Assembly: GCF_003002875.1 (NCBI RefSeq)
Contig: NZ_PVTH01000004.1
Location: 310,001-374,000 of the forward strand
Direction: 5' to 3'
Origin: Arcticibacter pallidicorallinus
GTDB taxonomy: Bacteria > Bacteroidota > Bacteroidia > Sphingobacteriales > Sphingobacteriaceae
DNA: 64,000 nucleotides
This document shows, piece after piece, positions 1,968-52,845 of the stretch; position 1 is the first letter of the stretch; the number at the start of each line of letters is the position of its first letter. The position numbers were made by a program, and so were the translations under genes. The notes beneath the pieces were generated by a model. That model was not told the DNA's origin. It was given only the letters and a program-made list of their open reading frames with translations, and ran no database searches.

Positions 1968-1999
1968 AATCAAGGGGCAAAGATAGTTATTTTTAATAT

Positions 2000-2563: not shown

Positions 2564-2605
2564 GATTACTCAACAAATAAGTATACTAGTGGTTGTAAAT
2601 AAAAA

Positions 2606-3865: not shown

Positions 3866-3951
3866 CCACATTAAGGCCACGGTGAGGCCACGTTTTGCCG
3901 GAAAAAGGTGGCCTCACTGTGGCCTCAATGTGGCCTCACCGTGGCCTCATC
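3866..3951. repeat. 11-bp tandem repeat (GTGGCCTCAnn x4) with inverted copies forming a long hairpin
   Basis: Four near-identical 11-bp units beginning GTGGCCTCA run from 3908 to 3951. An inverted arm at 3866-3891 pairs with 3908-3933 in 24 of 26 positions, leaving a 16-nt loop (3892-3907). The element sits in the 425-bp spacer 3697-4121 between two minus-strand genes. It is much richer in G and C than the AT-rich DNA around it. The open frame that crosses it is a by-product of the repeats, not a gene. The rest of the spacer holds the terminator at 4074-4101 and otherwise nothing I recognise. Confidence 0.8.
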
Positions 3952-4073
3952 CACCAATTGGGCACAAGCAAACTACCAGCAGATCAACAGCCGATCAACA
4001 AGGAATTAACAATAAATTAACAGCAAGCCAGCGGCTCTTCTACCCATGCTTATTAGTGCCTAGAAACCAAAAA

Positions 4074-4101
4074 AGGGTGATCATGACTAATGATCCACCC
4101 T
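4074..4101 (-). terminator. Rho-independent terminator of the YqhD-like gene
   Basis: A 10/11-bp stem (left arm 4074-4083, right arm 4091-4101, one bulged base) is followed on the minus strand by a run of six T (A run at 4069-4074). It starts about 20 bp after the stop of the minus-strand dehydrogenase at 4122, the right place and orientation for its terminator. Confidence 0.7.
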
Positions 4102-4121
4102 CGTTAATACAGCATCTTATC

Positions 4122-30030: not shown

Positions 30031-30061
30031 AGTCTTGTACTGCATGGTCAATAACAGCAAA

Positions 30062-30089
30062 CAAAACTAATGCTAAAAATATTAGCATT
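30062..30089 (-). promoter_or_regulatory. Promoter and palindromic operator of the imu operon
   Basis: On the minus strand TAGTTTTG (30069-30062) matches the Bacteroidota -7 consensus TAnnTTTG exactly. Overlapping it is a perfect inverted repeat: AATGCTAA (30069-30076), a 5-bp spacer, then TTAGCATT (30082-30089). A repressor bound there would block the promoter, as LexA does for imu genes in other phyla. The repressor's identity is unknown and no lexA-like gene is in the window. Confidence 0.6.
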
Positions 30090-30139
30090 TAAAGAATGTT
30101 GAAAAATATTTTAAGCGTAATAAGGATACCTTCAAGAAG

Positions 30140-31879
30140 CTATTTCCTCTCGATAGGCAGTATCTGATCAAACATCAAATTAGCTAGCCCTTCACCCCTA
30201 CCTGCTTTCTTCCTTCTTCCAACCCACAAAAAAGTTTTCCCATTCAGCCATCTGGTACGCTGAAAGTTTCGGGTAATAATCACTCCTGCCCGGGGTACTT
30301 CTTCTTCTTCGATAAAAAAAACAGGCTGTTTTTCTGATATTACTGAACTTAAAGGTCTTGTTCCTTGTGGCATTCTTGCTCTTTGTAAACTGATTTCCTG
30401 AAGAACTCCGGATGCTCCTACCTCTTTATGAACAGGGATAAAAGGGATCCAGTTATCGGGCACATTGTTTCCTAAAACATATCTTATTTTAGATTCATCA
30501 TCCACTGGCTGAAACTCTTTCAAGGAAGGAACCGTCCTTTTGAGAATTCTTCCTGTTCCTGCTGCCGATGGTACTATTTGCTCAATAGCCCATACCATAT
30601 TTGACATTTCATCTCTTATAAAATTCACCTTCTCCAAATCATCCCCTTCTAGTAATCGACCGATGGACGGTGTCATATAGAAAAGGCTTTCGTTTTTTGT
30701 TGCATTATCTCGCTCTGTTTGATGAAAAACAGCAAATTGCTGCCAGTTTGTTTCCGTATCCTGAGTTGCAGGAGACACATATGAATTCTGTCCGAAAACG
30801 TCGGTTACTACTATACCTTTTATCTGGCAGATGGTGTTTATATCTAACTCATAAGGAAGTATGAACCAGTCATTTGAATAAGTAAGGCCATATTCTGCAA
30901 GTAAGAGATTGAGCAAGGCTGTGGGTGATGCATCTATCTTGCCGAAATTAGTAGTCGCATCTTCCAGCTGCCAAAGACGATGATGAGGCATCCCTCCGAA
31001 TGTTAGAGGTGTGGGTATAAATGTTTGTACTTGTTCTGTACCTGCAGGCTGATCTTCTGTATTAGCTCCATCACTAATAACCTCCTGATCAAAATCTTTC
31101 CAGTCCAAATGTCCGGAGGCGTATTGATCAGCAATTAATCTTCTGTTGTTTCCCTTATAACGGCTTTCAAGACTGAAGTTATATTCGAGATGCTCATGCA
31201 CCCATGCCGATTGTCCACCTTCCGGTTGCTGATATAAATGTTTGAACCAATCTAAGAATGATTGCCCTGCTTCAATAAAAAAAGAATGATCGGACGGATC
31301 AATCAATGAATTGTTTTGAATAAAAAGTTGAAAGCTTCCGTCATTTACTTCCTGATGTATTCTATATCCATCCGGATATGTGCCCTCTATTCCTTTGTAA
31401 AAATACCTGCCTTCATCATCGTCATCCTTCATTTCATTCACTATAGGATAATGCTCCACGAGTATGTTTAAATACTTGCCTATGTTTTTCTGCTTCAATA
31501 TTTTAAAGAAATGCCGGCCCATCTGTGTTCGCAAAAACAAGTCTGGAGAAATTTTCTCTTGTTCTACAACTGTTTCCAGAGGAATGTTAATATCAAAAGG
31601 AATAGTATCACCATTTCCATAAACAAAACTTTGCGGCTGAGTGTGGACACCGAGGATATTGGCTTGCCATGGCGTTCCTGCATCCTCTCCTTGAAACTCA
31701 CCAAACTGCCATTGCCTGCATAAAGTCCATAGAGGGTCGCGTATCTCCATTTTAACATTATCATCCAGTTGGGTAGATCGTGGATATCCTTCTAACCGAT
31801 TATAATTGCTGATTACCGGCAATGCATATCTCGGAAGATCAATTTTTATTTTTGAAAGCGGTGCCAGGTACTTGTCCAT
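30140..31879 (-). CDS. Conserved hypothetical protein, last gene of the five-gene operon (579 aa)
   Basis: I cannot assign a function. The protein has no signal peptide or membrane segment. A striking block at residues 48-70 reads RDPLWTLCRQWQFGEFQGED, and a later TPLTFGGMPHHRLWQLED segment (about 295-315) is similarly Trp- and Gly-rich. Near the end are GVIITRNFQRTRWLNGKTF and a basic RRKKAGRGEG stretch. I recall the RQWQ-GEFQGEDAG pattern in uncharacterised proteins of other phyla, which would mean a conserved family, but that was not checked. It follows the 1604-residue gene by 29 bp on the same strand, so it should be co-expressed with the four upstream genes. Confidence 0.75.
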   Translation of the reverse strand: MDKYLAPLSKIKIDLPRYALPVISNYNRLEGYPRSTQLDDNVKMEIRDPLWTLCRQWQFGEFQGEDAGTPWQANILGVHTQPQSFVYGNGDTIPFDINIPLETVVEQEKISPDLFLRTQMGRHFFKILKQKNIGKYLNILVEHYPIVNEMKDDDDEGRYFYKGIEGTYPDGYRIHQEVNDGSFQLFIQNNSLIDPSDHSFFIEAGQSFLDWFKHLYQQPEGGQSAWVHEHLEYNFSLESRYKGNNRRLIADQYASGHLDWKDFDQEVISDGANTEDQPAGTEQVQTFIPTPLTFGGMPHHRLWQLEDATTNFGKIDASPTALLNLLLAEYGLTYSNDWFILPYELDINTICQIKGIVVTDVFGQNSYVSPATQDTETNWQQFAVFHQTERDNATKNESLFYMTPSIGRLLEGDDLEKVNFIRDEMSNMVWAIEQIVPSAAGTGRILKRTVPSLKEFQPVDDESKIRYVLGNNVPDNWIPFIPVHKEVGASGVLQEISLQRARMPQGTRPLSSVISEKQPVFFIEEEEVPRAGVIITRNFQRTRWLNGKTFLWVGRRKKAGRGEGLANLMFDQILPIERK

Positions 31880-31908
31880 CTTCTTTAAATTTTAAAATGT
31901 CAGCAACA

Positions 31909-34900
31909 CTATTTCCAGGCTTTATAGAGCTCCAGATTTGCATTTGCCATAACCTTAATAAAGTGATCATTCACTGTTAAGTAATCAAGCGAGATATTAG
32001 CATCTCTAAGATCAAAATTGGCGACAGTCATTGGAATTAACGTATCAAGTGCCGGATGCTCTAGTATATGAGCGGGTTCTACCGCACGGGTCTTTGCTCT
32101 GTCGAATGTATTACTGATTATACCCAGCATGGTATCCCAGCTCCACTGCGCTGCGCCTGTTGGCTCTACTGCTACAAGGATGGCATTTGGTGCGGAGGCA
32201 TTAGGTTGATCATAGTTGAAAGAAACCCCGCTTATTTCTTTGTCATTAGGAACGGCTTCTGTCCACTCATCTATGAGCAATGCAGATTGTAGTTCGTTGA
32301 CATTTCGGGCCTGAGATCCGTGAATAGCCATTACCACTGTATCATCGAGTATATCAAATTTTTCACCTGTTTGCTCATCTGTTGCAGGAAACTCCACTGC
32401 AAGCCAGCTGCTTTTATCATTAAAAGGAAACTGAGCAGCAATAAATGGAATATCTGCATCACTCTGAGCTTCTGCTATCGTTCTCACCTGCTCCAGCTTG
32501 CCCATAGAGGAACGCACCCTTGCTACAGACTCTAACCAGGTTTCCACTGAGAGTTCTGTTGTTGTATGATTTATCCGATTGGTATATTTCAAAAGCTGAG
32601 CGCCCTCATCACTTAATACTTTTGACACATTCTCAGAGTCAACGAATTTAAATTGTGGAAGAATAATAAAATCATCTCCCAGTAGAGCTTTGCCTGCTTC
32701 TGATAGGCGCGTGATCTTCAAGTCAGACGTCGGTTCCTCATTGGCTGCTGCAATCTTTTTTGCCGCGACTGCTAACTTTTGATGGTAGTGATGCCAAAGC
32801 GAGGCACCGGAGTGAAGCAGATCAACGATCTCTCCCGGTGTTACCATACTACTTACTGGCTTTAAAAGCGTGCTTATTCCATAATTCTGGCCTGATCGAA
32901 GGAAAACATCCAGTTTCAAAATACCTTCTTCTGGAATGACCACCTTCTCCAGTTTTTCAATTGAAGTTCCTTCTTTGTAATATCCTTCGAATAGAGTGAG
33001 CAGATCAGACGGCCCTTCAATAAGACCTCCTGGTTCAGAAATCGTAAGCCTTTCAATAATTTTCAATTCAGCATCCAGACTATTGAACACAGTATTCAGC
33101 CGACTAATCAGTTCCTCCACATCCCAATTGGGGATAAAGCGCTGCTGTTCATTTTCTGACTTAGGCCTCGATAAAAAGTGTTTTGCCGAAGCAGGCCTTC
33201 CATTAGTGATCAATAGCCTTAATGAACGAATAAGCGGAATGGCTTTGGCCAGACTCCTTTCACCTTCAGACAATGTTGTTTCGAATTCAATTTTCAATTT
33301 TCTTTCTACGCGGGTTCCTGTTTTGCTTAAGAATGCCTGCTCAATATAACTTTCGAGTTGTTTTATACCTGACTGCTGGTCTGTACCCAAAAGATATATA
33401 ATGTCAATGGGTTGAATATTCAGTTCTGAAAGGCTGACAATGGTGCTTTGAGTTTCATTTCCTTCTGAGTCCACAACAGATACGCCAGATATAATTTGGG
33501 ATGGATCTCCAATTATCTCACCCAGCCACCGGTTCATTCCCGGCTCCATTAATGAACGAGGACTTGGTTTAGCTGTCCAACTCTCCGTTACCTGCTGCGA
33601 AGCTTTAGGATCAAAATGAATGGTAACTCTGTTCGTAAAAGATAAGTGTGTAGATCGGGGTGTCTTATGAAACTCCAAATCCGGTGGTATGTCTGCGTTC
33701 TTCAAGGAGTTCAACACTGCAGCAGTCCTATCTGCCTTTCCTTGAGTAGCCTGAAAAGCGGTTTCCGTAATTAATAAATCATTTATAGCATCCAACGTGT
33801 CTTCCAATCGCTTTTTTTCCATAAGAATAAGCTGCAAGTGCGTCTGATTACTTACCACCGTCAGCAATTCATCGTCCGTAGCATTTGCAATCTTTAGCCC
33901 GTCAACCACTGCATACGCAGGTACACTTTCCTGAGCTTCTGTGCCTGCCTGGGGAATTGACGCCGACTCAAGAGGATATTCTTCACGTAACGATAAAATG
34001 TATTGATTCAAATTATTTGCTGGGTTGTTTGTTGTAATATCGTGCAGCGCTCTCTCAAACTGGTAGCCAAGGAGTGCTTCAAGCCGTTGGTTATTCTGAA
34101 TACCCTGAATAACAAATAGGGCTTTTCTTACTCTTTCTGATGAAAGGTTCACGGCAAATGCCCCTGGATCACTCCTGGTTGCATGATTTTGGTATCCCGC
34201 CAGAAGCAGACCTGCAGCAGTTGCATGGTTTAAAGAAGGCGTATGAACAAATCCTGCATTTTGGGGATTTTTGTAAACCGGCTGTTGATTTGATGGTTTA
34301 AGAGCTTCGGGAACCTCTATAACTTTCCCTCCCGATGGCCTCAGATTCTCCACCCATCCGTACGATCCATGATAGATACCTTCAGGTTGCTTACGGCGGT
34401 TCTGCTGCAAACGTCTGGTAAATAAACCCATCTGCCAGCTATCCAACCGGTAACTGCACAGGTCTATGTGATCCGTAAGATGATATTGAAGTCTTAAAGT
34501 CGAGAGATTACCCAATAATTGAAGGGCTGCTTTAAACTCATTTAAGCTTCTTGAATCTTTCCAGCCTCTGGAGAGCAAGTAGTCACCTAATGGTATATTT
34601 ATTTCGAAAACTTTATCGTTAATAGCCGATGGTGTACCTTTTATCAGTTCCCAACTCGTCAAATCCTTGAATTCTTTACTAACATTAAGAAAACTTTTTT
34701 CTAATCCGGAAACTGTAGAAACTCCTAAGTTTGAATAGTATTTTTTAGAAGCTTTTTCTAATTCCAGAAGAAGGCTGTGGCGAAGAAGTAAATAGAGGAT
34801 TGAGCGTGGAGGACCTGCTCCCAGATTATGAGAACTAATTTCTTCTTCCTTTTGCACCTGAGACAGCCATTCTATATAGTTAAGATTCTTAGGTCCAAGC

Positions 34901-36723
34901 TTATCCAGGAACCTGTCATCAGCAGCTGTCTTACCATCAACTAATTTGATCAAGCTTATTTTGTTCTCAAATTTATAATAATGAAGATTAGTAATGAGTG
35001 CACCCACATCCATTCTGTCACCATATGGATGAAGCGACTTAACAAAGCCACGTAAGGTTTCTTGTTTCCGGGCTAATTCTCCGGCCTTTCCTATAACATT
35101 CGTAGCGGATAATGAAAAATCAGGCAGATGCGCAAGTCTTTGAATAAAAGAGACAGATCCGGCTTCCAAGCCCAGAATATCAATCAAGGTTGATGAAGGA
35201 TCCGAACCGCGCCCTATATGCGCAACATTCTTTTCAGAAAGATCATACCAGATAGACTGGAGCCTCTTAAAGACAGTTGTCATACCCTCAAAAAAAGGCT
35301 CTCTATCCACCCATTTAGCCATGTCGCTCGTAACAAGAAAAGAATAAGGTTGATCACCAATGCGAATTGCAGGAAAGGGTCCTGACGCTGTCACAAAATC
35401 AGTAAAAAAATCACGGAGCTGGCTCTTTTGCTGTTCACTAAACATAGGCTTTGCAAGATTTTCTATAAAAGAGCCTATAGTTGCCGGATATAGTGCCTTG
35501 TTCATTGCCAAAGCTTCCTTTACTTGCTTCTGTGATGCATGATCAGCATTTTTGAGAACAGCCTTGTCAAGGCCCAGCAATGTCGCAAATCTGAACCCAT
35601 CTTCTTCCGCATCATTAAAGGCATTCATATCTATACCTTCATAATAGCCCTTTGGTAGGTAGTTTTCATTCTTTCTGTAAACTGATCCAGAGCTTTCGGT
35701 ATTATTGGTTGGACTGCGTTGAGGTAAGAAACTAAAACCCTTTGCAGAGTATTGATGATTTTCGATCAGTTCTTCCATTAGGACTTTCCCTTCTTGTACT
35801 GAAGCAGATGAGCACACACCCATCACTATAATTCTCTCGATCATGCCATGATTAAGAAAATGCTCCTGCACTTTTATTTTCATTGCCAGCCCCTTTTCAA
35901 CAGCCTTATCAAAGTCTGTTATCCACGCAAAACTATCATCCAGAACTATGGAATTATCCTTCTTCTCAAATGATTCTTTAGCTTGCAGTGGATCCGGGCC
36001 AAGAAACACGGTGTCAGGAACCGGAGCTCCAACCTCTGTATGAACTATTTTCCCGCTCCGGTAGAGGCTGACAACAAACTGGTCAGGAAGAAGATGGGTC
36101 CTTGGAGCCTGTGTCCAGTTATGCGTCTTCGTATCCCCTACCTCGGAGAACTGTAAAGCCTCATCTTCCAGGATGACATCCACTGACCAATTAAGAGGCA
36201 TGGTTTGTTTTGCAACCCAAAGTGCCCGTTGTACACCTCTGCCTTCAGAAAAGCTCTTCCAGACAGCCTTCTTATGATCTTCAACCGATATATTTTCCCT
36301 ATTTATTTTGAGCAAGCTCAACCAGTATTGTCTTCCTGCGAAATGCTCGTCTTCTGTCAAAAGTGACTCGTGTGTATGGATATGAATATCATCCGGATAG
36401 ATCCTGATCCATAATTCAGTGGCATTACCAACATTTACAAAGCGTGTTTCAATCCGTATAGGAAAAAAGAGAACAGGAACCTCTGCACTCATATTTGCAA
36501 CTATATTCTTATAGCCGTTCCGCTCAAAAAGCTCTTTCCTGGCCTTATCTAACGCAGAAGAAGCTTTGATATAGTTTTCACTTCGAACACTTAAATCAGC
36601 AGTAGCAGAGTCACCCGAACCTTTTTGCCGGTTTAACTTACTTTGATATAGTTCCTTGTCGGCATTTTGGATTTGCAGACGGGCTTCTCTTATTTTCTGA
36701 AGATCTTGATCAAGAGTGGGCAT
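31909..36723 (-). CDS. Giant conserved hypothetical protein (1604 aa) of the five-gene operon
   Basis: Function unknown. Residues 1-70 are predicted coiled coil. Then comes VLFFPIRIETRFVNVG (84-99) and ELWIRIYPDDIHIHTHES (103-120). A mid-region near 790-905 has YGSYGWVENLRPSGGK, then SLNHATAAGLLLAGYQNH and ALLGYQFERALHD. A later stretch contains helical heptads. The end has AAQWSWDTMLGIISNTF. No signal peptide, transmembrane helix, ATPase motif or nuclease motif is visible. The gene ends 29 bp before the 579-residue gene and starts 3 bp after the 1061-residue gene, so the three are almost certainly translated from one mRNA. Such length and internal diversity suggest a scaffold or particle component, which is only an inference. 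Confidence 0.75.
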   Translation of the reverse strand: MPTLDQDLQKIREARLQIQNADKELYQSKLNRQKGSGDSATADLSVRSENYIKASSALDKARKELFERNGYKNIVANMSAEVPVLFFPIRIETRFVNVGNATELWIRIYPDDIHIHTHESLLTEDEHFAGRQYWLSLLKINRENISVEDHKKAVWKSFSEGRGVQRALWVAKQTMPLNWSVDVILEDEALQFSEVGDTKTHNWTQAPRTHLLPDQFVVSLYRSGKIVHTEVGAPVPDTVFLGPDPLQAKESFEKKDNSIVLDDSFAWITDFDKAVEKGLAMKIKVQEHFLNHGMIERIIVMGVCSSASVQEGKVLMEELIENHQYSAKGFSFLPQRSPTNNTESSGSVYRKNENYLPKGYYEGIDMNAFNDAEEDGFRFATLLGLDKAVLKNADHASQKQVKEALAMNKALYPATIGSFIENLAKPMFSEQQKSQLRDFFTDFVTASGPFPAIRIGDQPYSFLVTSDMAKWVDREPFFEGMTTVFKRLQSIWYDLSEKNVAHIGRGSDPSSTLIDILGLEAGSVSFIQRLAHLPDFSLSATNVIGKAGELARKQETLRGFVKSLHPYGDRMDVGALITNLHYYKFENKISLIKLVDGKTAADDRFLDKLGPKNLNYIEWLSQVQKEEEISSHNLGAGPPRSILYLLLRHSLLLELEKASKKYYSNLGVSTVSGLEKSFLNVSKEFKDLTSWELIKGTPSAINDKVFEINIPLGDYLLSRGWKDSRSLNEFKAALQLLGNLSTLRLQYHLTDHIDLCSYRLDSWQMGLFTRRLQQNRRKQPEGIYHGSYGWVENLRPSGGKVIEVPEALKPSNQQPVYKNPQNAGFVHTPSLNHATAAGLLLAGYQNHATRSDPGAFAVNLSSERVRKALFVIQGIQNNQRLEALLGYQFERALHDITTNNPANNLNQYILSLREEYPLESASIPQAGTEAQESVPAYAVVDGLKIANATDDELLTVVSNQTHLQLILMEKKRLEDTLDAINDLLITETAFQATQGKADRTAAVLNSLKNADIPPDLEFHKTPRSTHLSFTNRVTIHFDPKASQQVTESWTAKPSPRSLMEPGMNRWLGEIIGDPSQIISGVSVVDSEGNETQSTIVSLSELNIQPIDIIYLLGTDQQSGIKQLESYIEQAFLSKTGTRVERKLKIEFETTLSEGERSLAKAIPLIRSLRLLITNGRPASAKHFLSRPKSENEQQRFIPNWDVEELISRLNTVFNSLDAELKIIERLTISEPGGLIEGPSDLLTLFEGYYKEGTSIEKLEKVVIPEEGILKLDVFLRSGQNYGISTLLKPVSSMVTPGEIVDLLHSGASLWHHYHQKLAVAAKKIAAANEEPTSDLKITRLSEAGKALLGDDFIILPQFKFVDSENVSKVLSDEGAQLLKYTNRINHTTTELSVETWLESVARVRSSMGKLEQVRTIAEAQSDADIPFIAAQFPFNDKSSWLAVEFPATDEQTGEKFDILDDTVVMAIHGSQARNVNELQSALLIDEWTEAVPNDKEISGVSFNYDQPNASAPNAILVAVEPTGAAQWSWDTMLGIISNTFDRAKTRAVEPAHILEHPALDTLIPMTVANFDLRDANISLDYLTVNDHFIKVMANANLELYKAWK

Positions 36724-36726
36724 GAT

Positions 36727-39700
36727 TTAACGGATTGAAGAGTGTATATAATCAATCAGGCTAATGAACCTGTTGCTAACTTTATTGTCTGGTACAGGTA
36801 TATCAAGCATTTCCGTTGCATGAGTAGCAACCATTACTGGCCGTTGAAAAAGGATGGCAGCCATATCACTAGAGCTTGCTCCCCATTTTCCTTTCTTATC
36901 TCCAGCAGAAACATTGAAGTTTCCTCCCGGCTTTCCGGTATTACCCGGAACGATTTCCTTCCTGATGAATTTCAAACTCTGCCCTCCGAAGTTTTCCCAC
37001 GACAGATCATTCCAGGTCTGACTCTCTGGCTTGTTTGGATTGTAAGTAACATCCATACCGAAACGTGGTTCTCCAGGCACCTCGGCCATAATAAAAAACC
37101 ATCCATCCTTATCCGAGAAACCGGGAGTTTCATCGATGCCAGCTGCTTCATCAATGGTCAGATCAAAACCAAGCAACTTAATATCCGGAACAATTTCAGC
37201 CTGATAAAGCGGAAATCGCACCTCTTTTGCATATTGTTCTGACGTCAAATCAACCCTTATCTTTTTCTTACCATCTATCATGATAGCTTTTTGTGCATAG
37301 ACAACAGTGTTTGGGAACTTCTTCAACAGATCTCCTCTGATCACGAATACCAGTTGCTCTGCATCTCCCTGCGCATCACGTGCATTATGGCTTCCCAGTA
37401 AGCTGGAATTGCCCCATTGATGTATGGGCCTGATATCTTTTAGCTTATCGGCGTTTTGGGGACTGGTATCTGGTGTTACAAAATTGGCGGTGTCCCAAAA
37501 CTGCCTGAAATATGTCCCCCTCATATCTGTAGGATATTCCCTCCAGAGAAGCTCTCGCCCCATCTCATGATTAAGTCCCATCAAATAGGCTTCAATGAAT
37601 TTCTGGTTTGTCTTTAAAAGTGATAATGTATTCTGAGGTATCAACTGCAGGTTAGGTAACAGAAACTCTTTATCGATATCTACGAGGTACTTGTATGCAG
37701 GTTCAGGAATATCCGGATAAGCCATAGCAGGCAGAAAATCTTCTTTGGGTGGCTTAATTGTCCCTCCCGGCCATTTTATCTGTCCGGCAATAAGCTTCTT
37801 ATAGGAGACAGAGGGATTCAAAGTGTTTGCTACATAAGCTTTAATCGATGCCATCTGTAAAACCTGAGTTTGCGTCTCAGGTTCTCGATATTGAAAGCGC
37901 GAGTTGACTTGATTAAAAGCCAGGTTTACTTCCAAATTCAGCTTTTGAACATCCGGCTGATTAACTACTTTTACGTCCTTGACCAGAATCGGGGCTACTT
38001 TGATATCCACATCAGATGGTGGCCTCTTCACCTCCGGGAAAGGGCGCTCACGCTCAATTTCCTTTGGAAGCTTCACCGGCTTGAGCCCTCCCAAATTACC
38101 TAATGTCTTAAGTACTCCGGGATTAAAAACAACAGGTTTATCTATTTCTTTGATAATATCAATATTCTTAAAGCCTCCTTTGGCCGGAGGAGTGTAAACG
38201 TATTCCAGCTCCAGATTAGATTTAATAGCATAGCCTTTAACCTGATTAATCGAAGATGGCGCTTCAAAGAAGGTAATGGCATTCAAACCTTCGATACCCT
38301 TGAAAGTAGACTTAGACTTGGCAGAGAGTCCGTTTACCTGGTTCATTTTCCCCATAAGGTTCACAAAATTTCCAGAAACGTTCTGCACGTTCAAACCCTT
38401 AAGTAAAGAAGTTTTAGACCGGGTAATTTTTTTGAATCCCGCACTAAAAATGGCTTTTGGTAAGATGCTCTTTTGAATAGTAAACTTCAAAGTTTCATTT
38501 TCGGTCAGAATGCGGGAAGCTAAAGGAAAGGTTAAACTCAAGAGATTTTCCGCTGGCCGACTCTGAATTGTTTTATTGAATAGTTGCTGCGAAATAACGG
38601 CACTAAACTTAGTCAGCCGCATCTTTTTGTTAGCATCAAGCACTCCTTCAAGCTGCTTCCAGGCTTTATCCATAAACCTCTCTTGATTTTCCTGCATTAC
38701 ACGGACGCCAAAACCTGCAGGAACCCTGGTCCGTGGGTCACGGTTCAGATCATTATACCAATTGCCCGATTCAGGAACAAAGGTCGGAACCTCTTTCTTT
38801 CCCGGGTGTGCAGGATCTTTGCGCATGGCATGGTACATGCCATAGTACGGAGTTGACACATAGGGGTCATTTTCAAGGTTCTCCAATTGATAATTATTTA
38901 AATTCGCCAGCTTCTCCATCTCATCGAAGAAAGGTTGCGGTGTCTCCGCCGGGGGGAAAACTGTTGACTTCGCGCTTGGCGACTTAACTGCACCTTCCAA
39001 TAACAAGATTGATGGTACAGGAGAGGATACTTCCTCGTTTTTATCTGCCTGCACAAAGCCTGGCCTGGAACAGTCCATTGGTCTTAATCCAACACGTTCG
39101 TCCATTATTCTCGGCTCGAGAAGCTTAACCAAGTACTCAAAGTCAAAGTTTTGTCCTGTACGGAAGTGCCATCGATAATAGACTGGAAATTCTGAATCTG
39201 TAGAGGGCCAGGCCGGCTGCTGGGCTTTTATATCCGCCGTAGGTCGCCCCGTTCCTGCTAAACGCCCTGTTTCGTAACTGGGAACAAGAAAGGCATGATA
39301 TAAAGCGTTCGATTCTAACTTACGCGGGCAAAGGACCCTGCTGTAAACCCCATCGGGGTCGCGTTTTGCATCTTCTTCTAAATCATCAATAAACGACTCA
39401 AACTCACTTTGCTGGTGAGGAAGATTAGAGTGCATATGTGCCCATAGATGAAGCTGGTCATGAGGTGGGAGATTAGTAGGGTCAGTAATTTTAATGGAGG
39501 TAAGGGGCTCCCGCCTTTTCGTATCTTCAAATTCTCCTTCCTTTAGTACAATAAGTGCAATCCAGGGGCGTAAATGGTCTTTGTTGCCGGCCGGAGAAGC
39601 AGGACTATATCTCCAGGGGAAGTCTTCATCATAGAATTCAATATACGGCAGAAGATTAGGTTCATAATCTGCGATGCCCAGTGGTGGTTCAGTACGAATG

Positions 39701-39912
39701 ATCATACTGCTCTGTATACCTGTAATATCCCCAGGCCCTGTTAAGGCAAAAACTCTGTCAGGTAAAACGGTTTCGTTTATCTGTACAGAAATCGAAATTC
39801 CGGCTCTTTCATTTGCATTACCGGCAGCTGCTCCTAATGTATCCTGCTCAGATATATGCCGTGCAATTCCTCGTCTTGCCCATGAAAGAAATTGATACTG
39901 TCCAAAACTCAT
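36727..39912 (-). CDS. Large conserved hypothetical protein (1061 aa) of the five-gene operon
   Basis: Function unknown. The N-terminus (FGQYQFLSWARRGIARHI) has no export signal. Recognisable blocks are TGPGDITGIQSSMIIRTEPP (about 60-80), PWIALIVLKEGEFED (about 115-130), YYRWHFRTGQNFDFEYLVKLL (about 245-265), LNHEMGRELLWREYPTDMRG (about 778-797, followed by TYFRQFWD) and GWFFIMAEVPGEPRFGMD (about 930-950). Between about 480 and 680 lies a low-complexity linker rich in Lys, Pro, Val and Asn. The block structure looks like a large beta-rich structural protein. It starts 22 bp after the 1169-residue gene and ends 3 bp before the 1604-residue gene. Confidence 0.75.
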   Translation of the reverse strand: MSFGQYQFLSWARRGIARHISEQDTLGAAAGNANERAGISISVQINETVLPDRVFALTGPGDITGIQSSMIIRTEPPLGIADYEPNLLPYIEFYDEDFPWRYSPASPAGNKDHLRPWIALIVLKEGEFEDTKRREPLTSIKITDPTNLPPHDQLHLWAHMHSNLPHQQSEFESFIDDLEEDAKRDPDGVYSRVLCPRKLESNALYHAFLVPSYETGRLAGTGRPTADIKAQQPAWPSTDSEFPVYYRWHFRTGQNFDFEYLVKLLEPRIMDERVGLRPMDCSRPGFVQADKNEEVSSPVPSILLLEGAVKSPSAKSTVFPPAETPQPFFDEMEKLANLNNYQLENLENDPYVSTPYYGMYHAMRKDPAHPGKKEVPTFVPESGNWYNDLNRDPRTRVPAGFGVRVMQENQERFMDKAWKQLEGVLDANKKMRLTKFSAVISQQLFNKTIQSRPAENLLSLTFPLASRILTENETLKFTIQKSILPKAIFSAGFKKITRSKTSLLKGLNVQNVSGNFVNLMGKMNQVNGLSAKSKSTFKGIEGLNAITFFEAPSSINQVKGYAIKSNLELEYVYTPPAKGGFKNIDIIKEIDKPVVFNPGVLKTLGNLGGLKPVKLPKEIERERPFPEVKRPPSDVDIKVAPILVKDVKVVNQPDVQKLNLEVNLAFNQVNSRFQYREPETQTQVLQMASIKAYVANTLNPSVSYKKLIAGQIKWPGGTIKPPKEDFLPAMAYPDIPEPAYKYLVDIDKEFLLPNLQLIPQNTLSLLKTNQKFIEAYLMGLNHEMGRELLWREYPTDMRGTYFRQFWDTANFVTPDTSPQNADKLKDIRPIHQWGNSSLLGSHNARDAQGDAEQLVFVIRGDLLKKFPNTVVYAQKAIMIDGKKKIRVDLTSEQYAKEVRFPLYQAEIVPDIKLLGFDLTIDEAAGIDETPGFSDKDGWFFIMAEVPGEPRFGMDVTYNPNKPESQTWNDLSWENFGGQSLKFIRKEIVPGNTGKPGGNFNVSAGDKKGKWGASSSDMAAILFQRPVMVATHATEMLDIPVPDNKVSNRFISLIDYIHSSIR

Positions 39913-39934
39913 CGCTCAATTTTTTATTTGTTCA

Positions 39935-42900
39935 TCATACTTCCGCTAATTCATACCTCTCCACAACTTGTATCTCATGTGCCAAAGATGGGTTGGATCT
40001 AATCAGGTTATCATAAAAGTTATTGACTTCCGCCAAAGTTGTAGCCCTGAAACTGGCATCATACTCAGTCAGGTTAGACGTCTTGGCGATGGCAAACCCT
40101 TTATGCTCCACTTCAACCTTTCCAGGTGAATTTAGAGGTTTAGAAGCCGTCTTAAGCCAGCTCAATTCCGACTTTGAAGCTGCAGCATATCGCTTCATAT
40201 TATCAAATGCATATATGGAAAGCTTAAATGGTAAGTTTTTATCGTCATTAGTATAATCCAATTCGTAATCCATTACAACGGGATCAAGATGTGGACTGGC
40301 AGTCAATAACTTTCCGCTGTCTTTTAATTTGAATCCGCTCGGCAATGCTTCATACGATTTCCGCGACAGCTTTTCTGATTCAGAAAGTTTGGTAAAATGT
40401 CCTGGCGAGAACATTTCTTTCTCATCATCTGTAGCCTCCTCCTCACTGCCAATCTTTACTTTCGAAATCCGGATCAGATTTACATCAAGAGGAACCTGAC
40501 TACCATAGGTCTCGATTTTGTAATTCAGCGGAATGGATCTCTGGCTGAACCTCAGCTCTCCAAATGGAAACAGCACTACAGGAGCGTTTTCCTCATCCTC
40601 GGGCTTCTTTAAAGTAACAGCTTGATGCTGGTGTTCAGCTAGTTCTGTTCTCCAGTTCCGGATATCGAAGATCTCTTGTTTTACCTTTTCCAGGAGATCA
40701 ACTGTTACCCTGGTAATTTCAGAAGGCCGATCTCCCCAAGTGGCGGAGAACCCGATAGTCACATCAAAGAAGAGCACACCAAATGTTACTTCACCCTCTA
40801 CATGCCATGGCGTTGGACCTGAAAGAACACCTTTGAAATGAATGCCGAATAGAATACTGGTATTCTTACGTATAGCTAGGGTTGCCTCAAGAGCAATCCC
40901 GAAGCTAAACGGATCAAAAATAAAGATGGCATCAAAGGCGAGCATGCCATAGAGATTGAAGCCCATTGGTCCTGAGGCAAGTAATTCCAGCTTGGCTCCG
41001 AACTGAATCGTATTAGAGGTTATCGCGATATAACACTCGATAGTAAGACGCGGATTCTTGCCACTGAGTAGTGAAAGACCAATCCTGGTCATTTCCCTAA
41101 AAGCACCGGGCAAAGTAGGAACGGAAGGGTAATCTTTGAAGTCAGGATGAAATCCCCCGATACTGATAGCAAACAAGCTGGTATTCCCCCAAGCCACTAC
41201 AAACGCCATACTACCTGTCAGCGGAAAGCCTACCAACATGGAATCGAAAAGATGAGCCTCGAAATAGATAAACTTGTTCTGGAAGTCGATCACTCCCAAA
41301 AAGTTCACCTGCAATTTAAGTACTGCCGCCTCCTCTGTCGGCAATTTCGTACTGATAACGCCGAGAATCAATATTTTAGGATCCGGCACTTCTACAATCA
41401 CACCCAATTCAATCTTAATGAGCGTTGGCGTTCCCCAACCAAATTTCGCCATCAGACCAATCAGAAACTGATCTTGCTTTACCGGAAAGATCTCGCGTAT
41501 ATCACTTATAATTCTGCTTATGTTACCAACAACATCTTCAGGAAAGAGAATACTTTTAATAGCATTTGTCTTAATGCCTATTCGCAGTGGTTCTACCTGA
41601 ACCGTTCTGTTAAGACCTAAAAGCCCTCCTACTGCCAATAAAGTAAATCCGAAGCCGAGCTGAATGGGACTAAATTCTGCGGTAATAATAACGATCATCG
41701 AAAAGCCCTTGGAGCCATCAGGCATGATCGTGTTGATTAACCCCACCGCTTTCAAAGAAAACAGATTTTTGAATTCCAGCTCTAATGCTCCGAAGTACTC
41801 GCCTCTTTCCTCGTCGATATAAAGAAATCCTCCGCCCTTAATTATTTCAGCATTTACCCGAACACCTATTCCGTTAGGAAGCTTTATCTTGGGACTTATG
41901 TCATATCCTCCTACACCCCCATTATCTTCTCGTTTTGCCAGCGTCAGCAACATACCTAAGCGGCTCACAGACAGGGTTAGCACAGATCCGAATTTCAACC
42001 AGAAATCTAAAGAAGTTTCCAGCTGTATCGTATCAAAATTCCCTTCAACTCCTGTACGGACATTTAATAATTGCAAGCCAAGCACCCCTCCCACATTCTG
42101 ATGCAGGGGAATTCTAAAGTCAATTGCATTAAGAACCATTTTCGCAATACCAGCGACCAGACCCGGGTCCTCTGCCGGCTCTCCGGTAGTTCTTGCCATT
42201 GTACTCGGAGCTTTAGGATCTGTACCTGCGCTACCATCTCCAAAAAAGAAGTTACGCTTCAATGAGTAACCAAACGCTATGGGTATTTTCTCCTCGATCT
42301 TTTCTGGCAGCAACTCAAAAGGGAACCCTGATAAGCCTCCCCGGCCGAACTTAAAGGGCATTTCGATTTTGGTCTTCACTTCAAAATCATCAGGAGAAAT
42401 TTTAAACCCGACCATATAGGTTCCTATGCCGATCTTTATAGATGGTTTATCGAGTAATGACCATAAGGTTGGATCCTTTCGTGTGTCTGTATAAGAAATT
42501 GCTGCTTTATTGTTCTTTCCTGCCTCTGCCTCAGGTGACTCGCCTACTCTGAATATCCCTTCTCCTGCAAAATCAAACTTTAAGGACCTGTTTTCATCAA
42601 TCGGAAGCGTCGCATCCAGCTTACCGGCCAGATCGGTAACCAAGGATATACCACCCTGACTTTTTGGAACAAGTGAAAGCGTGTTGTAAAGCGTAGCGAT
42701 ATTATCAGGATCATCTAAGGGTGTGAATGAAACAGAATAAGTAAATGAACGGTCTGCGATGCTGTCGGCCACAGGAGTGGCTGATTGCGATACGCCTTCA
42801 AACCCGTAGCCTGATTCAATACTTACAGACTCGATGCCATTACCTTTAAGTATCTTTTGATTTATGATAAACAGACCCGCACCCAAAAGAAGGAATATTG

Positions 42901-43444
42901 AATCAGACACTACTTTTGCATCTTCTTCAGATTCGAAGTTTTCAAAGCCTTTGCCAAGCCTCTCAAAGAATCCAAATACCACCTCCTTAATGAACTTAAC
43001 AGAACCTCCCTGTTCTGCCGTCTGCTGACTAAGAACGGATAAAAGCCGTATAGTACTGTGAATAGTCGGTTGTCGTCTGCGAATGTAGTCCAGAACCAGC
43101 ATGTTAGTGAAAGTGTCGAGCGCCTCTCCCGCTGAAAATTCCGAATCGCTGTCCGCAGCTATTGCCGCCCTGAAAAAGCCTTCAATCGACAGCATGAGCT
43201 GAGTCAGGTCTGCAAGGGCGCTCGCTAGCTTAAAGGCATCTACTTCCTGGGATTCCGAGGCTATGTACTCATCCAGACTGTTGGCAGGAGCTGCTGCTAA
43301 AGCAGTACCTGTGTCTTGAATGCCCAAACTGCCCAGGAACTCCGCTCTTGACTGAGGATCACTAAGCAGATTTATTCCGGGAGCTAAAATATCCTTAACC
43401 CTGGATAGAAGCGATTTAAAGAAGTCTTTATTTTCTTCAGCCAT
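39935..43444 (-). CDS. Large beta-rich hypothetical protein (1169 aa), resembling DUF6603-type proteins
   Basis: The first about 210 residues are helical and acidic. From about 220 to 980 the sequence is a long succession of amphipathic beta-strands with many Gly and Phe, including GFGFTLLAVGGLLGLNR (about 595-612), FGWGTPTLIKIELGVIVEVP and a run of LFAISIGGFHPDF/ LYGMLAFDAIFIF-type strands. This resembles the uncharacterised DUF6603 family as I remember it; no search was possible. There is no signal peptide, so an outer-membrane barrel is unlikely unless exported by another route. A strand-rich solenoid or shell is another reading. It lies 11 bp downstream of the PhoD-like gene. Confidence 0.75.
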   Translation of the reverse strand: MAEENKDFFKSLLSRVKDILAPGINLLSDPQSRAEFLGSLGIQDTGTALAAAPANSLDEYIASESQEVDAFKLASALADLTQLMLSIEGFFRAAIAADSDSEFSAGEALDTFTNMLVLDYIRRRQPTIHSTIRLLSVLSQQTAEQGGSVKFIKEVVFGFFERLGKGFENFESEEDAKVVSDSIFLLLGAGLFIINQKILKGNGIESVSIESGYGFEGVSQSATPVADSIADRSFTYSVSFTPLDDPDNIATLYNTLSLVPKSQGGISLVTDLAGKLDATLPIDENRSLKFDFAGEGIFRVGESPEAEAGKNNKAAISYTDTRKDPTLWSLLDKPSIKIGIGTYMVGFKISPDDFEVKTKIEMPFKFGRGGLSGFPFELLPEKIEEKIPIAFGYSLKRNFFFGDGSAGTDPKAPSTMARTTGEPAEDPGLVAGIAKMVLNAIDFRIPLHQNVGGVLGLQLLNVRTGVEGNFDTIQLETSLDFWLKFGSVLTLSVSRLGMLLTLAKREDNGGVGGYDISPKIKLPNGIGVRVNAEIIKGGGFLYIDEERGEYFGALELEFKNLFSLKAVGLINTIMPDGSKGFSMIVIITAEFSPIQLGFGFTLLAVGGLLGLNRTVQVEPLRIGIKTNAIKSILFPEDVVGNISRIISDIREIFPVKQDQFLIGLMAKFGWGTPTLIKIELGVIVEVPDPKILILGVISTKLPTEEAAVLKLQVNFLGVIDFQNKFIYFEAHLFDSMLVGFPLTGSMAFVVAWGNTSLFAISIGGFHPDFKDYPSVPTLPGAFREMTRIGLSLLSGKNPRLTIECYIAITSNTIQFGAKLELLASGPMGFNLYGMLAFDAIFIFDPFSFGIALEATLAIRKNTSILFGIHFKGVLSGPTPWHVEGEVTFGVLFFDVTIGFSATWGDRPSEITRVTVDLLEKVKQEIFDIRNWRTELAEHQHQAVTLKKPEDEENAPVVLFPFGELRFSQRSIPLNYKIETYGSQVPLDVNLIRISKVKIGSEEEATDDEKEMFSPGHFTKLSESEKLSRKSYEALPSGFKLKDSGKLLTASPHLDPVVMDYELDYTNDDKNLPFKLSIYAFDNMKRYAAASKSELSWLKTASKPLNSPGKVEVEHKGFAIAKTSNLTEYDASFRATTLAEVNNFYDNLIRSNPSLAHEIQVVERYELAEV

Positions 43445-43455
43445 GTCAAATAGTG

Positions 43456-46056
43456 TTAAGGTAGCACGGGTTTAACTATTTCGGCGGCCGGAGTTTTCAA
43501 TGATATCACATGAGTAATATGACTTCCTACAGATCTTTTTGATATATCAAGATCCCCCTTTCTAAATAAAAACTCATGATTCACTTTCCACTCTTCTCCA
43601 TCGGCACTGAACGTTATTTTGCTGACATGTGATGGCCATACCAGCCGCTTGGAAACGCCTGATACGAATGTCTGAAGATGCCTCTGCACTACCTTCTTGT
43701 ATCCATCTTTTAATGAAGTGGCGTTGTTAAGGTCAATATCACTGGTAAAAAACTCATCCGCTGAAGAGCGGTCGTCCTTTATAAACTTCAATCGCCAGCC
43801 ATAATCCGGTTTTTGGCTCACCGTTGCACCTGCCTGCCAACCGGCAACAGGAATCACACCAGGATTTTGTCTTAAACGCTGCCTATTGCGGATACTGACG
43901 TTTCCTGAAAGCGACAGAATTTTATCCTTCCATCCAACTTTTTCCAGATCAGATCCAATGCCTGTGAAGATCTTTTGAATAATAGCTGACTTAAAAAATG
44001 CCATGTTCTCCATCCAGCGATTTTTTGAAGAGCTGGATGTAAGCTGGACAATACGGCTGCTTGGTGCTGTTCCTTCGCCTTTCCAATAGTCAAGCACTGC
44101 TGATGAACCGTAGTGAACATCCCCGGATAACAGTATAACCTTCTTGTAATTATCTAATTTCTCGAGCAAATTCTCAAAAGCTGCCACATTAAAACTCCAT
44201 GCCTCAAAATCGAATTCTATCTCACCCGCTACCACGCCTTGATTGGCTCCGGAGTTATGAGAAAGGCCAACCACTGATGCTGCAAGTGGTTGTATCAACT
44301 CTTCAAAACTAGCCAGCCCCAGCACAGGAACCGGTGAAATGACGACTGTAAACGGTGTAGATTCTGCAACATTCTCCGGCAGTTGCTCCGAAAATGAATC
44401 ATCTGAAATTAAACCTGGAGGAGTATTAAGTGACGGATACGTCCTGGATGTTCGTGTATTAAGCACGTACGTTGTTGCTTTGCCGGTGGCGACGTTATAA
44501 TGCCACTTTAATTTAGAGGCCTCATCTGCCATTCCCAAAAGAATCTCCATAGGTTCGATAACCTCAGAAACCAAGGTGTCTAACTTTAATTTATTCGCGA
44601 CACGATAGCAATACTCATTTACGAGACGGATGAACTTCGTTTTTTCCGTCAGACCAGAAGAACTTTCTGTACTATCTCCTATCGGAACGTATTCATCGGG
44701 CACATTTCCCCAATCCTGGAAGACGGCATAAGCCATCAAACCATTTCGGATAATATCCCTGCCAAGAGGTTTTGACAACACCTGATTTTTCCAGCGCTGC
44801 GTGATGTACCAGTCGTCGGTAATTTCGTGGTCATCGAAGATCATATAGCATGGTACATTTGCCATAACCCTGCTTACAGACGGTAAGGTACTCGCAAAAT
44901 TGGCTAACTCTCTCAATTCTCTACGCATCGTTGAGCGGACCTTCTCCTTCCACTGGACAAATTTCGCGTTGGTAGTATTTGCAAACGTCTCGCGCATACC
45001 TTCATCGAACACATATTCCTTAGCTTTTCCCCGAAGATTCTCCCTGTCCATGATCACACTAATCAACGTAGGATCATCTTCTACAGCTTCGCTGTCGAGC
45101 AGACTGCTCACTACCTCATTGAGTACCGAATCTTTATTGTCCTTAATAAGCTTCTCTACCTTCTTGTAAAAGTCAATGTGCCAGGACCGTAAGCTCCAGT
45201 AGTTCAGGTAAACACCAGAGAATTCCTCGAAGCCAATTAGATGACAATCCGCACTCCCACTCGTAAAGCCTGCATACTTCGACATGATATATTGTCGGAG
45301 ATAAGGGGGAAACGTTACATGTTCTGCTGTAAATTGTTCGATGGGTGATGTATTATTTTCCCTGACTCGAATCTGTTCTTCCCCTACGCGCGAAAAACCA
45401 TCAGCATTACCGGTATAACGTAACAACATTCCCGCCACATCATCGGCATAGATCTGGTCACCTGTTAAAAAGAGCTGCTGGGGTCTTTTTTGAATATCTT
45501 TGGTGGTTGCTTTATTAAAATCTTCAATTTCTTTATCCAGATATGAGAGAGCATCTTCTCCATGCCCATGCATTTTCCTGCAGGAAGCCTGCGCTAAAAA
45601 AAGTTTGGCAGGATCATCAGAAGGAAGAAGAAAAGTAGGCAACACGTCCGTTTTATAGCCTATTGCTTTCTGCGCCCGCTCCTCGTGCTTCTCATCACTC
45701 AACAAACCTTCTGTTCGTAAATCGCCCTTATCGCTGGGATCATCGCTGCTTTCAAATAAAACATTATAGCTGTAAATCTGATCTGCTTGTAGACCCGGAG
45801 TACTTATCTCTGCTGTGATCAATGCAATCCAAAGTCGCGCTCCAAACTGTACAGTGGGGGCCGTATTCTTAACTGTTGTTAATGGTGCCTCCGTAACAGA
45901 AGAAGTATTGTCTCCAGATGCTGTCAGTTTAATTCCATCCCCTTCATAAATATTCAGCGAACAGTGGTAGTTGCTGGAAAAAGCTACCCAAACAGAAACC
46001 TTCTTTTTATCGACCCTTCTGAGAATGGGTCCAGCGATCAATTTCGGACTAGCCAT
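43456..46056 (-). CDS. PhoD-like metallophosphatase without a signal peptide, first gene of the five-gene operon
   Basis: This 866-residue protein has an N-terminal beta-sandwich (1-145) and a PhoD-type calcineurin-like catalytic domain. The metal-binding residues seem intact: ASCRK (157-161), TGDQIYADD with D200 and Y203, FDDHEITDDW with D408-H410, and SGDVHYGSS with D646 and H648. PhoD enzymes cleave phosphodiesters and monoesters, normally outside the cell after Tat export. Here no Tat or Sec signal is present, so it should act in the cytoplasm or in a complex. It is about 300 residues longer than usual PhoD because of insertions between the metal motifs. It opens the operon with the four large unknown proteins and is the only one with recognisable chemistry. 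Confidence 0.85.
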   Translation of the reverse strand: MASPKLIAGPILRRVDKKKVSVWVAFSSNYHCSLNIYEGDGIKLTASGDNTSSVTEAPLTTVKNTAPTVQFGARLWIALITAEISTPGLQADQIYSYNVLFESSDDPSDKGDLRTEGLLSDEKHEERAQKAIGYKTDVLPTFLLPSDDPAKLFLAQASCRKMHGHGEDALSYLDKEIEDFNKATTKDIQKRPQQLFLTGDQIYADDVAGMLLRYTGNADGFSRVGEEQIRVRENNTSPIEQFTAEHVTFPPYLRQYIMSKYAGFTSGSADCHLIGFEEFSGVYLNYWSLRSWHIDFYKKVEKLIKDNKDSVLNEVVSSLLDSEAVEDDPTLISVIMDRENLRGKAKEYVFDEGMRETFANTTNAKFVQWKEKVRSTMRRELRELANFASTLPSVSRVMANVPCYMIFDDHEITDDWYITQRWKNQVLSKPLGRDIIRNGLMAYAVFQDWGNVPDEYVPIGDSTESSSGLTEKTKFIRLVNEYCYRVANKLKLDTLVSEVIEPMEILLGMADEASKLKWHYNVATGKATTYVLNTRTSRTYPSLNTPPGLISDDSFSEQLPENVAESTPFTVVISPVPVLGLASFEELIQPLAASVVGLSHNSGANQGVVAGEIEFDFEAWSFNVAAFENLLEKLDNYKKVILLSGDVHYGSSAVLDYWKGEGTAPSSRIVQLTSSSSKNRWMENMAFFKSAIIQKIFTGIGSDLEKVGWKDKILSLSGNVSIRNRQRLRQNPGVIPVAGWQAGATVSQKPDYGWRLKFIKDDRSSADEFFTSDIDLNNATSLKDGYKKVVQRHLQTFVSGVSKRLVWPSHVSKITFSADGEEWKVNHEFLFRKGDLDISKRSVGSHITHVISLKTPAAEIVKPVLP

Positions 46057-52606: not shown

Positions 52607-52845
52607 CAACTAATATTAGGTTTACTGTGTTAAAACTAATACAATTCTCACGGCTGCGCAAAACAAAGTCTGATAACAGCCTCTAGGCCATGCATCCCCC
52701 CTCTGTAAGAGCCAAAAAGGCTCTTTTCTGTTTTAATCCATTCGATATCCTCTTTCGTCCATTTCACTAAACCCTAACAAAATGTTCCTTTGAATAAGAC
52801 AGAACGCAGGCTTGCTAACCAGAGTCCTGCCACTAACCATTTCTC

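Follow-up and report, generated by a model that had tools for sequence, protein, structure and literature searches.

In a stretch of 64,000 nucleotides from Arcticibacter pallidicorallinus (contig NZ_PVTH01000004.1, positions 310,001 to 374,000), the whole of which we refer to as the window, five minus-strand genes, designated P1 to P5 in the order of transcription, make up a cassette whose last four members recur together, in nearly always the same order, across many bacterial phyla and haloarchaea, and whose first position is usually occupied by an enzyme that varies in kind. In the window this enzyme is a PhoD-like metallophosphoesterase of a type found only in such cassettes; elsewhere, one branch of the exchangeable enzymes carries a common C-terminal domain that is likewise found only beside the core genes. 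We propose that the cassette may encode a modular enzyme-carrying complex, one that would probably act outside the cell or in target cells.

Layout of the cassette in the window

The five open reading frames (ORFs) encode proteins of 866, 1169, 1061, 1604, and 579 residues and are separated by gaps of 11 (P1–P2), 22 (P2–P3), 3 (P3–P4), and 29 bp (P4–P5). The variable enzyme slot is taken by P1 (43456–46056; PhoD-like, Pfam PF09423), which is followed by the core genes P2 (39935–43444; a DUF6603 protein, PF20248), P3 (36727–39912), P4 (31909–36723, adjoining P3), and P5 (30140–31879), the last being the RQWQFGEFQGED protein; P3, P4, and P5 are without a family. When the coordinates were re-derived, the strand, the sizes, and the gaps came out as had been given in an earlier note on this DNA, made from the letters alone, and that note's statement that only the first gene had recognisable chemistry holds in substance: PhoD passes the Pfam cut-off, DUF6603 is a name without a function, and P3 to P5 have no significant family match. 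The two blocks that the note had linked to uncharacterised proteins of other phyla, RQWQFGEFQGED and LNHEMGRELLWREYPTD, do recur there. A chance arrangement is excluded by the gene order, which is conserved in 92 loci.

Co-inheritance and host range

Those 92 loci (designated here by L and a number) were found through P3 in plasmid records, in one record labelled as phage, and in the best 80 of 459 genome relatives (L014–L093), with the ORFs being called mechanically, so that some starts and some slot ORFs (for example, in L010) may be wrong. A tblastn search of plasmids with P3 gave 13 records, from Streptomyces, haloarchaea, Gemmatirosa, Rhizobium, Paraburkholderia, and Nocardia, and in all 11 of these that were retrieved P2–P3–P4–P5 occur in order. 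When 84,980 genomes of bacteria and archaea were scanned with the P3 alignment, the 459 relatives were recovered among 490 pattern matches; the hosts of the best 80 belong to the Bacteroidota, Rhodothermota, Balneolota, Chloroflexota, Myxococcota, Cyanobacteriota, Planctomycetota, Actinomycetota, Nitrospirota, Acidobacteriota, and Pseudomonadota, in addition to an Aminicenantes and a Patescibacteria metagenome-assembled genome (MAG). Viral contigs contained no relative of P3. The only phage record matched by P3, an unverified faecal scaffold entitled 'Bacteriophage sp.' (L006, MT835531.1), carries P3–P4–P5 at the record end and is possibly a mislabelled bacterial contig.

The core is complete, in order, and on one strand in 77 of the 92 loci, and 14 of the 15 incomplete ones are cut by the end of a contig or record; P4 adjoins P3 in every locus not cut by a contig end. 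The median gaps over the loci are 11 (P1–P2), 2 (P2–P3), 12 (P3–P4), and 6 bp (P4–P5). The 14 further regions that were retrieved from 12 genomes after probing with P5 all contain P3 and P4, and 13 of them contain P5, P4, and P3 together; in the fourteenth (L102) P5 is not a separate ORF and was matched within a longer open frame. The arrangement has variants as well: the second cassette of a Leptolyngbya (L105 with L137) is rotated to P3–P4–P5–P1–P2, its P5 containing an in-frame TAA; L107 and L136 have an extra P2, or a piece of P2, upstream of the PhoD gene, so that P2 may be duplicated in some cassettes; and in one MAG (L038, positions 1–5109) other ORFs lie upstream of P3–P4–P5.

The P5 probe was positive in 6 of 296 genomes of Bacteroidota, the window's own genome included, and in 7 of 296 Actinomycetota, 3 of 201 Chloroflexota, and 2 of 140 Myxococcota, each count containing the known-positive genome on which the sample was centred. 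These figures correspond to 1.4–2.4% of the genomes across the four phyla samples, with three of the hits (G647, G710, and G753) being short fragments that were counted without their regions having been retrieved. Among 150 relatives of the A. pallidicorallinus genome, itself included, the cassette was present in two, and in none of the five congeners listed. The unit is thus rare, patchy, and widely spread, and this distribution therefore suggests a spread by horizontal transfer. The earlier note had proposed, as its own test, that the cassette might travel as a unit in unrelated genomes, with the four families plus PhoD co-occurring in order: the conserved order of P2 to P5 bears out the joint travel, and the fixed presence of PhoD falls, since a PhoD gene is found in only 26 of the 92 loci (an 86-residue fragment in L076 not being counted).

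The exchangeable enzyme slot

Of the loci without PhoD, 49 extend for at least 2.5 kb upstream of P2, and another same-strand ORF lies no more than 260 bp upstream of P2 in 48 of the 92 loci; in 18 neither PhoD nor a slot ORF was called. We classified the 48 slot ORFs by BLAST linkage, by Pfam scans of 24 of the proteins—nine of which had no family at an E limit of 0.1 or 0.01, with two more lying below the cut-off at E above 0.01—and by active-site motifs. The classes comprise 10 trypsin-like proteins, 9 M64 peptidases, 8 clan-CD-like cysteine peptidases, 7 subtilases (L075 among them being a fragment of 182 residues), 3 phospholipase D (PLD) proteins, 2 galactose-oxidase-like proteins, 1 patatin, 1 tyrosinase, 1 member of a porin family, and 6 proteins of no class. 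The motif GDSG is present in 10/10 of the trypsin-like group, HExxH in 9/9 of the M64 proteins, and two HKD motifs in 3/3 of the PLD proteins; the clan-CD-like label is based on (S/T)H(G/A)...GC motifs plus one DUF4347 hit below the cut-off (E 0.054), and on a GHG...SC read by eye in L062, with which protein a search of the PDB found nothing. The porin-family ORF of L045, at 253 bp from P2, is probably not a cassette enzyme. A non-PhoD enzyme thereby occupies the slot in 41 of the 92 loci, and the 14 later regions add subtilases (L097 and L099), an M64 peptidase (L104), a clan-CD-like protein recognised by profile (L100), and a WD40 protein (L102). In two loci, L045 (3348–9989) and L098 (12026–18637), P2 is about 2,200 residues long by virtue of an N-terminal extension, and no slot enzyme gene was recognised; that extension might be a fused enzyme.

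The enzymes are exchanged over cores that remain related. The P3 tree, with 107 rows of which 75 are labelled with an enzyme class, requires at least 26 changes of that class, as counted on a quick tree with long branches and without a comparison against shuffled classes. The galactose-oxidase-like locus L034 and the M64 locus L087 have cores that are 51–67% identical and enzymes with no match to each other, and the same is found for L031 (M64) and L100 (clan-CD-like), whose cores are 50–64% identical. One row (L008) of alignment A1 is partly out of frame, and neither A1 nor a second alignment, A2, served for any count. The earlier note's suggestion that PhoD leads the unit is not supported, PhoD being among the many enzyme kinds that stand before P2, and its idea of a storage device with a phosphoesterase is at odds with a slot in which proteases, phospholipases, and oxidases are found as well.

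A C-terminal domain shared by unrelated enzymes

The trypsin-like proteins and some of the subtilases of the slot, which are unrelated enzymes, have in common a C-terminal domain, some 130 residues long, whose core motif is VxxxWHRxxGP. This domain is present in 10/10 of the trypsin-like proteins and in 3/7 of the first set of subtilases (one of the three being a fragment), and two further subtilases from outside the model building match it with E values of 1.5e-29 and 4.5e-27. The enzymes of L033 and L099 match each other over the shared domain only, with cores 51–64% identical, and those of L042 and L050 only over the C-terminal stretch that contains it, with cores 54–61% identical. The hosts include Actinomycetota, Chloroflexota, and Myxococcota.

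A search of 38 cassette genomes, in which at most 106 candidates were scored per genome, found 16 copies in 12 genomes, all 16 in ORFs just upstream of P2; since most of the hits come from loci that had supplied the model, the telling part of that result is that nothing was found elsewhere. A set of 246 Actinomycetota genomes gave no copy, with at most 16 candidates scored per genome in a set without a positive control. Three of the 12 domain-bearing genomes contain tandem genes, in two or three copies, before P2 (L033, 787–6275; L042, 685–4162; and L091, 3638–6613), and the extra genes that were read for motifs (L033 at 2276, L042 at 685, and L091 at 3638) all have GDSG. A profile comparison of 19 enzyme groups related the clan-CD-like groups to one another and produced one weak pair of haloarchaeal proteins of no class and weak cross-hits of the subtilases; as this comparison used the columns of the first row of each group and missed the domain known to be common to trypsin-like proteins and subtilases, its sensitivity is low and little can be read into what it failed to find. 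The shared domain is the likely tag by which one branch of the enzymes would be docked or recruited.

In being a C-terminal domain common to unrelated enzymes, it resembles the sorting domains of the type IX secretion system (T9SS), from which it differs in being found only beside P2–P5 in the 38 genomes; Pfam scans of the slot proteins that carry it, which involved no direct comparison with T9SS domains, named no sorting domain.

The PhoD-like enzyme of the window

P1 matches PF09423 with an E value of 9.7e-9 and 35.2 bits, the curated cut-off being 27, and contains the motifs SC (159), GDQIY (200, 203), DDHE (409, 410), and GDVH (646, 648). The residues C159, D200, Y203, D409, H410, D646, and H648, which we take to be metal ligands on the basis of Bacillus subtilis PhoD, are kept in 96–100% of 25 family rows. 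P1 accordingly belongs with the PhoD alkaline phosphatases in score and in ligand motifs, and departs from them in its 866 residues with extra parts, in its tie to the cassette, and, as far as crude hydropathy shows, in the apparent lack of an export signal, the N-terminus as read having no hydrophobic core. This PhoD type was searched for in 34 genomes, where every strong match falls inside a cassette, including one in Rhizobacter (L136) that is placed between pieces of P2 on a 5.9-kb contig; the only matches outside are two weak fragments of a single PhoD-like gene in Nannocystis.

The core proteins P2 to P5

P2 matches DUF6603 with an E value of 3.4e-113 and 379 bits against a cut-off of 27, over residues 454–1023. 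P3, P4, and P5 gave nothing significant when compared with Pfam, NCBIfam, PADLOC, and PHROGs, the single PHROG match of P3 (E 0.43) being at chance level, and none of the five proteins of the window matched a family of PADLOC 2.0.0 at E values up to 1. Searches of the PDB sequences with profiles of P2 to P5 and with P1 as a single sequence gave no credible relative, the matches being at chance level for P1, P2, P4, and P5 and absent for P3. In the same four collections P1–P5 likewise matched no family of sheath, tube, spike, or baseplate proteins and none of ATPases, and Pfam and NCBIfam gave no Tc or RHS domain. The large proteins thus match by sequence no known phage tail, injection, or secretion machine, clear matches to which the earlier note had named as a refutation. 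Homology of P1 to P5 with one another was considered and rejected: the best of the ten pairwise profile comparisons reached a probability of 4%. The 65-row alignment of P5 contains many invariant residues.

We obtained AlphaFold2 models for two of the proteins. That of P2 has a mean predicted local distance difference test value (pLDDT) of 76.7 and a predicted template-modelling score (pTM) of 0.52, with an N-terminal part modelled as helical, followed by some 24 long strands within 442–903. The two faces of these strands differ by 3.2 hydropathy units, compared with 1.30 ± 0.19 in shuffled sequences (0 of 2000 shuffles being as high), so that in the model P2 is a beta protein with strongly amphipathic strands. 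In comparisons with LptD, porins, and ApoB (Foldseek and VIA), the P2 model reaches Z values of 11–14 to barrels and 15.6 to ApoB, the top row. As to an outer-membrane barrel, relatives of P2 also occur in archaea and Actinomycetota.

The P3 model is confident (pLDDT 79.7, pTM 0.69, with 476 residues at 90 or above) and has no significant Foldseek match, the best E values being 0.23 in the PDB and 0.66 in BFVD. The best VIA row, to CopC, covers 87 residues within 62–255, an immunoglobulin-like stretch, at 2.7 Å and a Z of 5.2; we rejected that likeness, as the Z is below the level at which it means much. The other parts of P3 were barely compared, and absence from the VIA list is by itself no evidence for a new fold. 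At least one of the core proteins may perhaps have a fold that differs from the solved structures.

Genes around the cassettes and the possible site of action

By crude N-terminal hydropathy the core families gave no hint of signal peptides, the medians over the first 45 residues ranging across families from 0.52 to 1.45. Domains of extracellular type are found in some cassettes: FG-GAP in P3 and peptidoglycan binding in the PhoD protein of L005 (Pfam), Lamin Tail Domains in three haloarchaeal P5 proteins (L002, L007, and L011), and kelch in one P2 (L042). Peptidoglycan-binding or transglycosylase genes lie near some cassettes (L014 and L103), and tyrosinase and M64 peptidases are enzyme kinds that are often secreted. 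We hold with moderate confidence that the complex would be released without the general secretory and twin-arginine (Sec/Tat) routes and would act outside the cell, because there is no hint of a signal peptide and yet there are extracellular-type domains and often-secreted enzymes. For the neighbourhood we scanned 104 flanking proteins, chosen from 148 listed of the 167 that met the size filter; they fall into 92 Pfam families, none of which occurs in more than three of the proteins.

In the window itself, the genes upstream of P1, from 46197 onward, are on the plus strand, and downstream of P5, before the next minus-strand gene, lies a weak A+T-rich hairpin on the minus strand (30061–30139) with an 8-bp stem and a T-rich tail, which is possibly a terminator; the 81-base stretch 30060–30140 folds at -10.2 kcal/mol, a value without a shuffle control. 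The three minus-strand genes directly after P5 (24546–30060) resemble imuA-imuB-dnaE2, the names being ones that we presume, and a Rhizobium record labels two of their relatives DNA polymerase Y family protein and error-prone DNA polymerase. Similar mutagenesis-type polymerase genes lie near one other cassette, on that Rhizobium plasmid (L004, 6235–11811), among the mostly short-flanked loci L002–L109 that were compared; we treated the linkage as a coincidence. A hybrid sensor protein of 1403 residues is encoded on the minus strand at 48398–52609, with regulator propellers, Y_Y_Y, histidine kinase, receiver, and AraC-type DNA-binding domains (Pfam). The G+C content of the cassette (0.430) is close to that of the window (0.434), a composition without a sign of recent import.

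Relation to contractile injection systems

In five Chitinophaga-group loci (L047, L048, L051, L068, and L070) a homologue of the tail terminator Pvc16 stands 3' of P5 on the same strand, and in 4/4 of the regions retrieved an operon of an extracellular contractile injection system (eCIS) follows it, with sheath, tube, CIS_tube, VgrG-like, gp25, and baseplate J genes, as identified by Pfam in one region and by phmmer in the other three. In the Chitinophaga regions L110–L113 the eCIS operon is downstream, on the same strand, of a cassette of the PhoD type. Near a Gelidibacter cassette (L083/L114), a single sheath-like gene is found on the opposite strand, some 2 kb upstream of the slot gene, in a region where no other eCIS gene was recognised. 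The sheath domain PF17482 occurs in 34 of 48 cassette genomes, from several phyla, as against 46 of 198 Bacteroidota, a comparison that is confounded by lineage and genome size, because eCIS are already common in Chitinophaga and Algoriphagus (in 89 and 69% of the genomes, respectively, according to an excerpt of PMC8213781).

It would accordingly be conceivable that the cassette is an accessory or payload set of these systems, which we consider very improbable. The operons of the Chitinophaga group, the Gelidibacter gene, and the raw excess of sheath domains argue for such a role, and eCIS, including the Photorhabdus virulence cassettes, do resemble our cassette in joining a conserved core to a variable enzymatic cargo, as is generally held and as the same excerpt of PMC8213781 describes, and in a host range that, by that excerpt, overlaps with that of the cassette. 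Nevertheless, P1–P5 contain none of the structural families of such a machine, nor its ATPase; the sheath domain is missing in 14 of the 48 cassette genomes, and in the genome that contains the window a search for PF17482, the one sheath family covered there, found nothing; the excess is confounded as just mentioned; and another Chitinophaga (L129) has the same eCIS without an adjacent cassette. The link between the two is at most facultative.

Proposed function and rival explanations

Our preferred explanation, to which we give an even chance, is that the cassette encodes a modular complex that carries enzymes and that would probably act outside the cell or in its targets. What the data show is the operon layout, the co-inheritance of P2–P5, the exchange of enzymes, and the finding of the shared domain and of this PhoD type in cassettes only; the physical assembly of the proteins, their docking, the release, and the target we infer. 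P2 to P5, together of some 4,400 residues, would form the conserved core that is inherited as a set, and the fifth gene, just upstream, would usually supply a single exchangeable enzyme that acts on large molecules: in the window the cassette-tied PhoD phosphoesterase, and elsewhere a protease (trypsin-like or subtilase), a peptidase (M64 or clan-CD-like), a PLD, a patatin lipase, or an oxidase. The shared C-terminal domain would tie one branch of those enzymes to the core as a docking tag, the core with its amphipathic beta protein would bring the enzyme up to target cells or material, or into them, and the complex would leave the cell by a route other than Sec/Tat. That all this amounts to a self-standing and hitherto undescribed machine for enzyme deployment—four co-inherited proteins with interchangeable enzymes, extracellular, dependent on neither Sec/Tat nor a contractile tail, and horizontally spread—is a tentative proposal whose chance we place slightly below even.

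Several observations weigh against the enzyme-carrying complex. The extracellular placement rests on the type of enzyme and on a minority of fused or neighbouring domains, and no recurring lysis or release gene was found among the 104 flanking proteins. Intracellular immune systems, too, typically contain proteases, patatin, PLD, and clan-CD peptidases. By the rule used, no slot ORF was called despite more than 4 kb upstream of P2 in seven loci (L003, L004, L008, L013, L041, L076, and L084), nor within 260 bp in 2 of the 14 later regions (L096 and L098), and the sole uncut locus of the 92 without P2, the MAG L038, has no trace of P2 in the 5.1 kb before P3. The trypsin-like assignment is based on GDSG and on Pfam hits of L044 below the curated cut-offs (22.7 bits versus 27.6), and the trypsin-like protein of L012 has no Pfam family. 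When the model of the shared domain was run on all slot and PhoD proteins, it found none in the PhoD, M64, PLD, oxidase, or clan-CD-like proteins, and the domain is absent from 4/7 of the first set of subtilases. Finally, as every row shown for the P2 model against LptD, porins, and ApoB has a root-mean-square deviation of at least 9 Å (about 9–14 Å), a large beta meander is all that P2 can be said to be, and its resemblance to porins and ApoB may come to no more than that.

The main rival is an intracellular immune system, of the anti-phage or abortive-infection kind, in which P2 to P5 would sense an invader and switch on the exchangeable killing enzyme, a reading that we regard as unlikely. 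Exchangeable effectors beside a constant core, effector classes held partly in common with known immune systems, the patchy distribution described above together with the 13 plasmid records, and the apparent lack of signal peptides by crude hydropathy would all be expected of it; the 104 flanking proteins moreover match 16 PADLOC families, including mad3, mad8, AriA, PDC-M29, SspH, and REase, a count for which there is no baseline. By contrast, the cassette proteins include no ATPase, nucleotide-sensor, or membrane-effector family in Pfam or NCBIfam, the five proteins of the window drew no PADLOC match, tyrosinase, galactose-oxidase-like proteins, M64 peptidases, and PhoD would be unusual as immune effectors, and in some hosts the cassette genes encode FG-GAP, Lamin Tail, or peptidoglycan-binding domains. 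We think still less probable a surface or extracellular complex for scavenging nutrients, with a logic like that of the cellulosome, whose core would display one degradative enzyme. The phosphatase, proteases, and lipases are for the most part degradative and the named hosts, from what is generally known of their habitats, look mostly environmental, but signal peptides are again wanting by crude hydropathy, no transport gene recurs among the flanking proteins beyond two members of the major facilitator superfamily, and the enzyme is usually single, the tandem copies of the shared-domain genes being confined to 3 of 12 genomes.

The enzyme-carrying complex also has to be set beside the polymorphic toxin systems and the Tc toxins, which similarly combine large constant carriers with exchangeable toxic or enzymatic parts. 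The exchangeable part of the cassette differs in being mostly a separate whole gene, P1–P5 have no Tc/RHS match, and no immunity-like gene recurs among the 104 flanking proteins. Within the collections searched, the cassette fits no system tested. Pfam describes DUF6603, of which P2 and its scanned relatives are members, only as unknown, and the partnership with P3–P5 and a swappable enzyme is the new part. In the full-text literature, a scope that leaves most subscription papers and bioRxiv preprints outside, no paper mentioned DUF6603 or PF20248, and no description of the combination of enzyme and system was found, a description elsewhere being possible.

Significance

A conserved core with a plug-in enzyme slot, present in both bacteria and archaea, would be a new weapon, a new immune device, or a new enzyme carrier. 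Three nameless protein families, P3 to P5, gain a context, and DUF6603 is explained as part of a fixed set. The shared C-terminal domain furthermore offers a short candidate tag, which makes the loading of enzymes onto the core testable; and if that domain does load enzymes, harmless reporter enzymes could be loaded in the same way.

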